Positions 52,796 to 57,912 of a stretch of 64,000 nucleotides of DNA are shown in pieces. Source of the DNA: Anaerolineae bacterium (GTDB taxonomy: Bacteria; Chloroflexota; Anaerolineae; Anaerolineales; Anaerolineaceae); assembly GCA_013178295.1 (NCBI GenBank), contig JABLWW010000003.1, positions 1 through 64,000 of the forward strand, read 5' to 3'. Each line of letters begins with the position of its first letter. The first letter of the stretch is position 1. The translations under genes were made by a program, and so were the position numbers. The notes beneath the pieces are model-generated. The model did not search any database. It had not been told where the DNA came from and saw only the letters and a list, made by a program, of their open reading frames with translations.

Positions 52796-53407
52796 TTATT
52801 CTGTTACAAGGATGCCATGAAGGTAGATATCCACAAAGTAATCAAAGGCATTGCGCTCTAGCGCTGCCAGAGTTTCTGGGGCGGAACGGATCACCACTCC
52901 AGTAACGAAATAGGAAAAAAACAAACTAAAGAAAGATCGGATGAGAATAAAAGGGGGGATGGGACGGAGCCTGGAATTATCCACTTGGCTTATCCGCTGG
53001 TAGACATCAATGAACTGGTGAAGGTTCTTCTCCAAAATGGAGCGGGTATATTTATTTTGAAATTCTACGAAGTCAATGAACACGAGATTCAAGAACTCTG
53101 GAGAGTTGTTGAGGATTTCGACCATACGGCTGGCAAGGTTGCGCACAAATACTTCAACGGTATCGCCGCTTGTTTGCTGAATGGCAGGGATAAGTTGTTG
53201 GTAAGGGTGATATGTGTAGAAAATGGCTTCAAAAAGGTTTTCTTTGGTATCAAAGTGGTTGTAAATGCTTCCCAGGGCAATTTTGGCTTCTCTGGCAATT
53301 TGCCGCATGGAGGTGCCGTGATAACCCTGTCGAATGAACAGGGCATACGCTGTTGTTATGATTTGTTGGCGGGTCTTTTCTGTTTTGGTTACAGGATTTG
53401 GGCTCAT
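52796..53407 (-). CDS. TetR/AcrR family transcriptional regulator
   Basis: The product is 203 aa. The N-terminal helix-turn-helix is at residues ~12-58 (ITTAYALFIRQGYHGTSMRQIAREAKIALGSIYNHFDTKENLF). The C-terminal ligand-binding part is helical. It heads the efflux operon. It should bind the 14-bp palindrome at 53440-53453, which covers its own transcription start, and so repress itself and the exporter until a ligand binds. Its position and the order that follows match the CecR-YbhGFSR scheme. Confidence 0.93.
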   Translation of the reverse strand: MSPNPVTKTEKTRQQIITTAYALFIRQGYHGTSMRQIAREAKIALGSIYNHFDTKENLFEAIFYTYHPYQQLIPAIQQTSGDTVEVFVRNLASRMVEILNNSPEFLNLVFIDFVEFQNKYTRSILEKNLHQFIDVYQRISQVDNSRLRPIPPFILIRSFFSLFFSYFVTGVVIRSAPETLAALERNAFDYFVDIYLHGILVTE

Positions 53408-53439
53408 GTTCTCTTAGTGGCAAAGTCGTCGAAAATAAA

Positions 53440-53453
53440 AACGAACGTTCGTT
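53440..53453. promoter_or_regulatory. TetR-type operator
   Basis: AACGAACGTTCGTT is a 14-bp perfect palindrome of the usual TetR-family GAACGTTC type. It lies just downstream of the -10 box and over the predicted start point of the tetR operon. Confidence 0.75.
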
Positions 53454-53461
53454 CATTATCT

Positions 53462-53490
53462 ATATTACATAATTACGGCCTTGTTGTCAA
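53462..53490 (-). promoter_or_regulatory. Promoter of the tetR-efflux operon
   Basis: The minus strand has a perfect TTGACA (53490-53485), a 17-nt spacer and TAATAT (53467-53462). The start point near 53455 lies at the edge of the operator. The -35 is formed from the edge of the RHS remnant. Confidence 0.65.
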
Positions 53491-53631
53491 GCGCTGGACG
53501 ACCATCTGGATTCGACCAGCGTCACAGCCAATGAGGATAGCGCGTGGAACGCAGAGAGCACATTCACAGCCTATGGTGAGGTGCGCTGGAAGAACGGGCT
53601 GATGCCAAGCAGCTGTCGCCACACTACATAG
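53485..53631 (+). pseudogene. Remnant of an RHS-repeat protein gene
   Basis: One frame on the plus strand reads LDDHLDSTSVTANEDSAWNA and then ESTFTAYGEVRWKNGLMPSS before a TAG at 53629. This resembles the RHS core (DHLGSTSVT...YGEVRW..G.LPT). The DHLG glycine has become Asp and the expected YTFTGQ continuation is lost. There is no start codon or upstream coding sequence; it is cut off at the tetR promoter. It is a decayed scrap of a large RHS/YD-repeat gene. It is too short to rule out chance entirely, but the spacing of conserved residues is right. Confidence 0.6.
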
Positions 53632-53656
53632 GAGGATGCTTGCTGTCAGCGCTGTT

Positions 53657-56600
53657 TTAGTGTCGTTTGCGCTTCTTCTTGGGCGCAGAGGCGCTTTGTG
53701 TTTGGCTGGAGGGTGACGATGCTGCGACAGCATCTGCGGCAGGCGACGGGACTGCAGTTTGCCCTTCGCCACTTTCACGCAGAATACTGCTTGCTCGCAT
53801 GGTCTGATATGTGAATAGGCGCGATACAATCCCCGTGCGAATATCGTTGAGCAGGTTTTTAAACATATCTGTTGCCTGGCTTTTGTATTGCACCAGCGGG
53901 TCGCGCTGGGCATAGGCTTCCATGCCGATAGATACACGCAACGCCTCAACGCGTGTCAGGTAATCTACCCATTGGTCAGAGATAATCCTCAAAAACAGTT
54001 CGCGATGCACCTGGTTCTGCTGCCACCATCCCAGCGTTTTTTGTATTTGTGCGCGGATTTCTTGGTTGGTAATGTCAGTCAGCGGCAGCGTGGCGATGTG
54101 ACCGTATGTGTCTTCGCCAATTTCGACTTTGATATGTGCTTGCAGATGCTGGTCAAGCTGGCTCAAGGTGGTTTCGGTCTGCGCCAGACGATTCCATTCG
54201 AATGCCCCGCGTGCTTGCTGTAGGACTTTGAGACCTGTTTCGAGATGCTGAAGAACGCGCTCGGTTACCTCTTCGGCAGAGCACTGGCTTAACCATTTTG
54301 CAGCCAGGTAAATGTAGTTAAGACGCATCACGCGCTGCATCACCTTGCGATGGGTGCGCTGGTCAAATGCCATGCGTGTCCCGTAGGTCATTAGGATCAG
54401 CCACTGGTTGATTTGCGATGGGGTGTACATATCCCCGCTTGTGCGGGCGATTGCGCTGTTGAGTTCGCTGGTTATCTGCCCCTGCTCGCCAAGCAGCCGT
54501 TCCATTCGCCGCTCAAAGACTGTGTCCACTATTGTAAGGATATGTTTTGAAAGCTCGTCTATGTCAAGCGTTGCCAGCTGGGCGGGTTTGATGTCGAGGC
54601 TTTCTTCCAGACGGCGTTCTATGGCTGCGATTAACCTGCGAAAGTGGATTGCTTTGAGATGGGTTTCAATTTGACTATTTAGCGCATCGCGCGTTGATTG
54701 ATCGCCTTGCATAAGCAGTCTCATCTGCTCCATGTTCAGCCGCAGGGGGATGCGTAGCTCTTCAGAAAGCTGCATGAGCATGTCCTGTGGGCGCAGTGAG
54801 GGGATGTTTTCGTCTTGCTCGCCTACGCTTTCGACAAAAGTGTCCAGAGTTTCCGCTCTTTCGCGTATTTGCATCTCAAGCGCGTCCACAGTCTTTTCGA
54901 GCAGGTTCTCTATGCTTTGAAGGAGGTGCTCCTTTTCGGAAAGCAGAGCCTGCTGCGCCAGATCAAGCAGAGCCTGGCTGAGATTTTTGGGGGATTTCCC
55001 CTCGCGGTTTAATATTTGCAATACTTCTTCCTGCATCATCGCAAGAGGAAATGAGGGGTGATCAAAGGCTTCATATAGAATGGGGGGTTGAATTTCGTTG
55101 AGATATGCCAGCAGCTTCCAGGGGCCCTCTTTATCTTTCAATGCCTCGGGGATGCGGCGTTGAAGGTCTGTGCGCAGCATGTCCAGGATGTCTTCGGTAA
55201 GGTCTTCCTTTGTGAATGCGCGGTCTCTCTGTTCGTAGATGCGTTTGCGCTGTGCGTTCAACACATCATCATATTCCAGCAAATGTTTACGCACGTCAAA
55301 GTTATAGCCTTCAACCCGTTCCTGCGATTGCTCCACCAGTCTCCCAAGCAGATTCATTTCCAGAGGCAGGCTATCGTCAAAGAAGACGCGTTTCCACAAA
55401 GCTTCTACCTGCGGACCACCAAAGAGACGCATCAGGTCATCTTCGAGCGATAGATAAAAACGTGACGAGCCGGGGTCTCCCTGACGTGCGGCACGGCCAC
55501 GCAGCTGATTATCAATACGGCGCGCTTCGTGACGTTCAGAGCCGATGACATGCAACCCACCCAACTCGCGAACGCGTTTCATTTCATCCACGTATTGCAA
55601 AAATCTGTTGACTGATTCCTCGTAAATGCCATATTCTTCCTTGGGTATCCCTTGCAAAATTTGCAAACGCTCTTCGTTGCGCATGTCGTAGGGGTCATAA
55701 CCGGCGCGTGCAATGACGCGGTTAATGTCATTCAGTAACTCTTCAGGCAATTCGCCACCCAGCTTAATATCCACACCGCGCCCAGCCATGTTGGTGGCAA
55801 TGGTCACTGCTCCAAATGCGCCAGCTTTGGCGATGATCATTGATTCTTCGTCGTGCTTTTTAGCGTTTAATACCTGATGCGGTATACCACCCTGGAGGGC
55901 TTTGAGCAGACGAGGCTTATCGCCGCGGCTCAGATTGAGAATGCGCAGCAATCGTTCCAGATTTTCCTCGTCTTCCGGGTTGAGGCTTATCCCCAAGCTG
56001 CGCGCCACCGGGCGTAGCGTGCCGGTGTCCAGTTCTGGCAGGGGAGCGTTGAGTGGCTGTAGTTCGGGAACGGGACGTTCAAGCAATTCCTGCCCGCTTT
56101 TTTCCAACCAGGCTTGCCGTATCAGCAATACCTGTGCCAGCCGCCGTATAGGCTCTGCGCTCAGACGTTGTGAGAGACGTTCAGAATGTTCTACGGATGT
56201 TGTGCCGACTAACTGCGGGCGTCCCATCACATGGTAACGCAATATCTCCTGGGTGATGGCACGCAGCTTGGCTTCCTCGCCACGATAGACAACGTCGGTG
56301 TAATCTTTGCGTTTCCAGAAGACTGGCTTTTGCTCAGGATCGTCGCGGCGGGCGTAGTAGGTGTAGCGATAACCTTGTTCATCTTTGTCGTCAATGGCAA
56401 CCAGTTCGGCATTGGGTTTGGAAGCAATGAACTCTAGATTGGTGGGGATAGTAACCACGTCCAGTTTATAGATTTTGTGAAATTCTTCTGCTTCTGTGGC
56501 TGCTGTGCCGGTCATACCAGCCAGCTTTTGGTACATGCGATAATAGTTTTGCAGGGTAATGGTGGCGTAAGTGACATTCTCTGGTTCGACTTTAACGTTC

Positions 56601-57745
56601 TCTTTAGCTTCAATTGCTTGATGCAGACCTTCAGACCAGCGTCTTCCGGGCATCAGCCTGCCAGTAAATTCGTCAACGATAACCACTTTGCCTGCCTGAA
56701 CCAGATAGTCTTTGTTGCGTTTGTAGAGAAATTGGGCGCGCAATGCTTGTTCGAGGTAGCCTAAAATGCGAGCTTGTTCGGGAGTAATATCTTCTGGGCG
56801 TTCAGGGTCGCGCAGCTGCATCCCCAGCAATTCTTCAACATGCGCTTCGCCAAGTTCAGTCAGGGCTACGCTGCGCTCTTTTTCCATGATTTCGTAGTCC
56901 TCTGGCTTTAACTGACGGATGATCTGCGCCATGCGGATATACCATTCGGATTCGTCTGCCGCAGGGCCTGAAATGATTAGAGGTGTACGCGCTTCGTCAA
57001 TAAGAATATTGTCAACTTCGTCCACGATGGCGTAGTAATGTCCGCGCTGTACGCGTTCCTCGAGAGACATGGTGAGGTTGTCGCGCAGATAATCGAACCC
57101 GAATTCGCTGTTGGTGCCGTAGGTGATGTCGGCGGCGTAAGCTTCTTTACGCGGGACCAGGCGAAGCTGGTGCTGGTCTTCATGGGGCGAGGTACGTGTT
57201 GGATCAACAAGAAACGCCATTTTGCCGTTGTCTGTTCGGGCTGCCATTTGAAGAACGCCTACACTCATTCCCAACGCCATGTAAATGGGTGCCATCCAGC
57301 GCGCATCGCGTCTTGCCAGGTAATCGTTAACGGTTACCAGGTGGACGCCATCTCCGGAGATCGCATTCAGATAAAGCGGCAGGGTTGCAACGAGCGTTTT
57401 ACCTTCGCCGGTGCGCATTTCCGCAATTTTGCCTTCATGCAGCACAGCACCGCCGATGAGCTGGACGTCGTAGTGACGCAGACCGATAGTGCGTTTGCTG
57501 GCTTCGCGTACTGCGGCAAACGCATCGGGCAGCAGTTCATCCAGTGCCTCCTGTTTTTTGATTCCAGATTCGAGCATTTCGCGGTAGCGTGTGCGCAACT
57601 CTTCGGTTTTGGCGTATAGAGCATCATCACTTAACGCTTCAAAGCTTTTTTCTAATGCGTTGATTTGCTCAACTTTCTCGGATAGTCGTTCGATTTCACG
57701 CTTTTGAGGATCGCCCCCCAGTACCCGTATGATTTTTTGAAACAT
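53657..57745 (-). CDS. secA: Preprotein translocase ATPase SecA, unusually long
   Basis: SecA drives Sec-dependent export. The product is 1362 aa from the ATG at 57745 (AAGG 8 nt upstream); an in-frame extension upstream to 57904 has no supporting site. NBD1 has MRTGEGKTL (~residue 110) and [15 protein letters not shown] (~238). NBD2 has [27 protein letters not shown] and [26 protein letters not shown]. Two insertions stand out: about 95 residues in NBD2 (~525-620), and about 400 mostly helical residues (~845-1245) in the helical scaffold/wing region. The conserved sequence resumes at [27 protein letters not shown]. The C-terminus ends in a Lys/Arg-rich tail with no zinc motif. Usual SecA length is 800-1000 aa. 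Confidence 0.95.
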
Positions 57746-57815
57746 ATTGACACCTTCTGTTTTTTCGTCGTCTTCATCTGACGGAGAGTTTTTATGATGT
57801 GTAGCCTGTCGGGAG

Positions 57816-57824
57816 ATTATAGCA
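57816..57824 (-). promoter_or_regulatory. Extended -10 promoter of secA
   Basis: The minus strand reads TGCTATAAT (57824-57816), a TGn + perfect TATAAT. The start point would be near 57809, giving a leader of about 64 nt. Confidence 0.5.
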
Positions 57825-57876
57825 TAAGGTGCATTTGATATCTTGTGTGTTGCGGGTTGGTTTGTGACACAAGACG

Positions 57877-57912
57877 AAAACACGCCTGGCGAAGTGACGC
57901 GCACCAGGCGTG
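57877..57912 (-). terminator. Rho-independent terminator after lpdA
   Basis: On the minus strand CACGCCTGG pairs with CCAGGCGTG (9 bp, 57912-57904 and 57889-57881) and is followed by TTTTCGTCTT. It separates lpdA from secA. Confidence 0.7.

Follow-up and report, generated by a model that had tools for sequence, protein, structure and literature searches.

In the window, by which we mean the whole 64,000-nucleotide stretch of Anaerolineae DNA that was analysed, a decaying shard of an RHS core very probably abuts an older, self-contained tetR promoter, supplies no element of that promoter and is ordinary debris. The shard, of about 138 bases and apparently derived from a paralogue of the RHS genes found in the same genome, sits in the spacer between secA and tetR. 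This spacer is 249 bases long (53408-53656), and the shard and the promoter nearly fill it. On one side lies a gene for a TetR-family regulator with a TetR_N domain (52796-53407, minus strand, start at 53407), which is followed by genes for an ABC-2 permease, an HlyD-like protein and two ABC ATPases; a similar gene order after tetR was read by eye in the relative G002. On the other side lies secA, with four Pfam SecA domains (53657-57904, minus strand; this is the longest frame, and the true start may be inside it). The basic tail of secA stops immediately short of the shard.

The plus-strand frame at 53485-53631 reads CQALDDHLDSTSVTANEDSAWNAESTFTAYGEVRWKNGLMPSSCRHTT followed by a TAG stop, and it contains no start codon. 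Within it, the RHS-core fragment occupies 53491-53628 on the plus strand, as delimited by protein and DNA homology and a shuffle test, and consists of 46 codons without an internal stop. The TAG that ends the frame stands at 53629-53631, and the paralogue alignment showed that homology fades from here. We searched the fragment against its own genome (3.95 Mb, 21 contigs), and the best protein matches were a frame on contig C13 (E 9e-19) and a frame on contig C17 (E 5e-18). The fragment shares 73% amino-acid and 84% DNA identity with the C13 copy (C13:250), where it corresponds to residues 84-128, and 71% and 83% with the C17 copy (C17:246572). The BLAST DNA match to these copies covers 132 bases (53493-53624). 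In the shuffle control against the C13 copy, the real sequence scored 74.3 bits, compared with 23.1 bits for the best of 200 shuffled versions, 151 of which gave any match. The best match outside the own genome was a 2360-residue RHS frame of G012, which belongs to another genus of the family (57%, E 3.5e-11). Across 61 genomes (the own genome, counted here, and 60 relatives), the fragment query found a match in 9 at E 1e-3 or better, and a 112-residue core query found matches in 20 at E 1e-8. These comparisons indicate that 53491-53628 is derived from an RHS core, with a resemblance far beyond chance. The earlier note had described the frame as RHS-like and without a start, and had proposed tblastn against RHS proteins as a check; both descriptions held, and the check returned significant RHS matches in the own genome and in relatives.

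A Pfam and NCBIfam search with the 48-residue frame at E 0.1 returned no family, TIGR03696 and the RHS/YD models included; the fragment is short and spans only the start of the model. The shard overlaps the beginning of the TIGR03696 domain but ends before most of it, and the two longer copies in the own genome matched this model with 60.9 and 68.9 bits over residues 108-188. The fragment does not have the start codon, YD-repeat body, complete core and variable tip of a functional RHS gene.

The codon comparisons indicate that the fragment is now decaying as non-coding DNA. Changes were non-synonymous in 12 of 19 changed codons against the C13 copy (NG86 dN 0.127, dS 0.455) and in 13 of 19 against the C17 copy (NG86 dN 0.145, dS 0.487), compared with 1 of 7 between the C13 and C17 copies themselves (NG86 dN 0.010, dS 0.227). 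With so few codons, this non-synonymous excess (12:7 vs 1:6) fell short of significance (Fisher p 0.073). The dN/dS of the fragment against its paralogues was about 0.28-0.30, below 1, indicating that much of its divergence arose under constraint. Over the first 44 positions, 8 of the 30 residues common to the C13, C17 and G012 sequences are altered in the fragment; the DHLGST glycine and the two tyrosines of the SYRYT stretch are among the eight. Another of the eight, S21A, is also present in the shard at C13:3268, so it need not be damage. With no start, altered core residues and a stop, the shard would make no protein.

The edges of the homology were located by DNA alignment. In 53491-53496, the first six bases of the shard, 5 of 6 are identical to both paralogues; in 53485-53490, none of the six matches either paralogue, and the six bases to the left of these match at 1 of 6. 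The homology therefore starts at 53491-53493 on the left, and on the right the paralogue match fades at the TAG, by 53628. These alignments indicate that the TTGACA box adjoins the RHS piece and is not part of the RHS homology. Two protein searches ran past these edges. The C17 copy in tblastn crossed the stop and overran the right edge as far as 53700, and the G012 RHS protein in a gapped tblastn overran the left edge to 53398 through the promoter, crossing a stop and an 11-residue gap. When each flank was searched alone, the left flank (best E 0.31) and the right flank 53629-53720 (RHS matches, best E 0.53) gave chance-level matches only, none in the register concerned. The basic tail of secA was found in all 23 tails inspected in relatives (23 of 29 loci) and ended in RH in 22 of them, and its recurrence suggests that the secA end beside the shard is most likely ancestral. 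RHS DNA beyond the shard edges was rejected on these two grounds, the chance-level flanks and the recurrent secA tail.

The predicted tetR promoter lies on the minus strand. Its -35 box, TTGACA (53485-53490), was identified by consensus scan, relatives and paralogue alignment and stands just outside the RHS homology; its -10 box, TAATAT (53462-53467), was identified by consensus scan and relatives, follows after 17 bases and matches the consensus at 4 of 6 positions. A palindrome, ACGAACGTTCGT (53441-53452, minus strand), is a probable TetR operator, and similar sequences stand upstream of tetR homologues. We infer promoter activity here from the consensus only.

We compared this layout with 21 tetR loci of relatives, whose TetR proteins need not be orthologues (19 at 31-55% identity and 2 at 45-48%). 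TetR matches were found in 23 genomes, own included, and loci were used from 20 of these, own included, with the 3 weakest left out; from a second TetR search only the best 2 of 22 loci were used (L034 and L035), the other 20 being partial at E 3e-13 or weaker. In 15 of the 21 loci, a box with 5 or more of the 6 bases of TTGACA stood ahead of a GAACG/CGTTC operator, exact in 12, and this -35 box stands 28-40 bases ahead of an operator similar to ACGAACGTTCGT. In each of the 15 loci, no more than 1.7% of 300 shuffles (0.017) did as well as the -35/-10 pair, and the own locus gave 1.7%. The operator itself was present with at least 10 of 12 bases in 19 of 21 loci. The -35 box was poorer or the operator not found in the remaining six (L013, L014, L017, L023, L024 and L025), with shuffle fractions from 0.003 (L017) to 0.603; a free scan of L024 gave TTGACA and TAGAAT at 17 bases.

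We also searched 50 relatives' loci (21 tetR and 29 secA) by tblastn with the RHS core and the fragment. Two weak matches were obtained, one at E 0.057 in L025, which is not upstream of tetR, and one at E 0.70 in a secA locus (L098); none lay upstream of tetR in the 21 relatives' loci. The spacer DNA gave no match at E 1 in the same 50 loci. Since the layout is usual among tetR homologues and no RHS match stands there, the tetR promoter of the window needs no RHS debris. The comparison across relatives indicates that the promoter layout is older than the shard. Transcription of tetR would most likely start from this older module, in which TTGACA, 17 bases and TAATAT stand next to the GAACG/CGTTC operator, and the module is probably autorepressed by the TetR protein. 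As in autoregulated TetR promoters, a -35/-10 pair lies beside a palindromic operator and recurs in homologues, with repression itself being predicted. The TetR_N domain and a palindromic operator beside a sigma-70-type promoter are shared with the AcrR/MtrR type, to which we presume the promoter-operator of the window to be akin, but none of the best 25 of 26 NCBIfam models reached its cut-off for the TetR of the window. In 53350-53750, no terminator-like site was found on the minus strand between secA and tetR, so secA read-through into tetR is possible. By eye, a hairpin-like sequence after secA seems present in several relatives.

An imperfect direct repeat flanks the shard. The left copy, CTTGTTGTCAAGCGCTG (53480-53496, plus strand), overlaps the -35 box and the first six bases of the shard; the right copy, CTTGCTGTCAGCGCTG (53639-53654, plus strand), lies next to the secA stop and ends 26 bases past the last codon of the shard. 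The two copies, of 17 and 16 bases, came out of a repeat comparison and differ by one mismatch and one gap. The repeat was noticed after looking, and its gap kept it off the list of the ungapped repeat finder. Its pair score was reached in 6 of 5000 shuffles and in 30 of 6319 real placements along the window, and for wider stretches in 7 of 2000 shuffles and 20 of 2104 real placements. The repeat hints at an insertion with duplication, which is suggestive only, and the offsets at both shard ends make its fit as a target duplication inexact. If the repeat did arise as an insertion duplication, the left copy would have kept the -35 box. A dispersed genomic motif was not supported. The repeat had 8 matches in the genome at up to 2 mismatches, compared with 1 for the reversed control; only the right copy in the window was exact, and the other 7 carried 2 mismatches. 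At up to 3 mismatches, the window held 3 matches against 1.08 expected.

Other RHS copies and shards were found in the own genome. The C13 copy is an open frame of 394 residues with which contig C13 starts, and the C17 copy is a frame of 405 residues at the end of contig C17; both longer copies break off where their contigs do, and at the same position within the gene. The core frame at C13:1-1185 ends in a Pfam Ntox44 toxin domain and is followed directly by another frame and, downstream, by core shards. At least four other RHS shards were present, at C12:355676-355765 (minus strand, carrying a frame shift, in the spacer that separates two convergent tRNA-Arg genes), at C13:1931-1980 and C13:3268-3359 (near the longer C13 copy) and at C17:245008-245200 (near the longer C17 copy). 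Besides the two longer copies, the search with the fragment matched two shorter shards. A weak match to the fragment at C16:306113-306220 (39%, E 0.107, two internal stops) is either an older RHS trace or chance. RHS searches on C12 and C15 gave no match besides the shard itself. At the C12 shard, the best flank match scored 14, compared with 22 at the shard of the window, and the direct repeats in its spacer (11-12 bases) were none as strong as the pair in the window. When 2019 residues of the G012 RHS protein were searched against the own genome, only the last 70 were matched, at the two contig ends. The YD-repeat family TIGR01643 had no match in the own genome at E 0.001, in a search whose control was positive in 1 of 14 genomes. 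The remainder of the parent RHS gene is thus either absent from the assembly or lost, and its long body is perhaps a repeat that did not assemble.

Four accounts of the shard were weighed against this evidence. The earlier note had correctly placed the TTGACA of the tetR promoter on the other strand, and had gone on to propose that the left edge of the RHS fragment supplies it, a possible case of promoter birth from debris. It is highly improbable that RHS debris gave the -35 box and that the tetR promoter was created or replaced in this way. TTGACA does directly abut the RHS homology, the gapped G012 alignment continues through the promoter region, although without support of its own, and if the right repeat copy, which reads CTGACA on the minus strand, is the older, TTGACA would have arisen by a small change at the edge of the shard. 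Against this, the box matches the RHS paralogues at none of its six bases, the left part alone gives chance-level RHS matches, and box, spacing and operator recur at tetR homologues of other genera where no RHS match is found. No promoter element lies inside debris-derived DNA. Two separate tests, the edge of the DNA homology and the relatives, speak against a supply of the box by the fragment, and the birth of a promoter from debris is not upheld. We give as little chance to the idea that the shard has been put to use, for instance as the 3' untranslated region of secA, as an insulating spacer for tetR, or in the form of a small RNA or peptide. With no terminator-like site on the minus strand, secA read-through could carry the shard in antisense, and the dN/dS below 1 would fit some use; but Rfam at gathering threshold gave no match in 53300-53800, core residues are altered and the frame has no start codon.

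More weight, though still well short of an even chance, goes to the loss in place of a complete RHS gene between secA and tetR, deleted from both sides so that a core piece was left. Such a history fits 46 codons kept in frame without an internal stop, and the idea that deletions leave relics of rhs genes is in print (PMC2935791). However, no further RHS piece turned up in the 64-kb window with three RHS proteins at E 0.05, the shard is confined by the -35 box at one end and, within 28 bases of the other end, by the secA stop, and further shards occur elsewhere in the genome, one of them between two tRNA genes. A single piece in the window, a nearly filled spacer and shards elsewhere make a displaced shard at least as likely as loss in place. 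We infer that a small piece, displaced or copied, reached this site, possibly by an insertion that left a 16-17-base duplication, and that the shard is not the last remnant of a complete gene. A more specific version, which we regard as improbable, holds that RHS-core shards spread in this genome as short patches into intergenic spacers, perhaps as filler DNA where staggered breaks leave a 16-17-base duplication; at secA-tetR the -35 region would have been duplicated and the promoter thereby kept intact.

The synteny comparison suggested in the earlier note could be made across genera only, as none of the 60 relatives shares the genus of the window. The adjacency of secA and tetR was not found in any relatives' locus examined. 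By tblastn, no TetR was found in 29 secA loci, taken from 29 of the 60 relatives, and no secA in the 21 tetR loci and two longer stretches, within a reach of about 1.5 kb for most loci and of less than 500 bases beyond the match in 3 of the 29 secA loci.

In the Enterobacteriaceae, dissociated rhs fragments termed orphan tips, which combine core repeat and C-terminal tip, lie downstream of rhs genes (PMC2935791). They are described as degenerating partial pieces of the core that vary in length and mostly have no start site (PMC2935791). The C13 and C17 pieces close to an RHS frame resemble orphan tips as described there (PMC2935791). The shard of the window differs from that description: it is core only, has no tip, lies on another contig and stands between secA and tetR. 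The combination of partial core and C-terminal tip downstream of an rhs gene is not seen; homology fades by 53628, and the secA stop comes next, at 53657. A literature search on RHS in Chloroflexi/Anaerolineae found no papers. The case argues against a promoter birth from debris that looked plausible, and it offers a way to test such cases, which is to locate the end of the homology and inspect the same promoter in relatives. Otherwise it is ordinary genome decay; the finding of RHS-core shards scattered over one genome offers a small lead to the way in which RHS pieces move. In the relative G014, seven RHS core matches in open frames stand in a row over about 15.4 kb (G014:C110:1201-16588), and this row looks like a displaced-tip array in this lineage.
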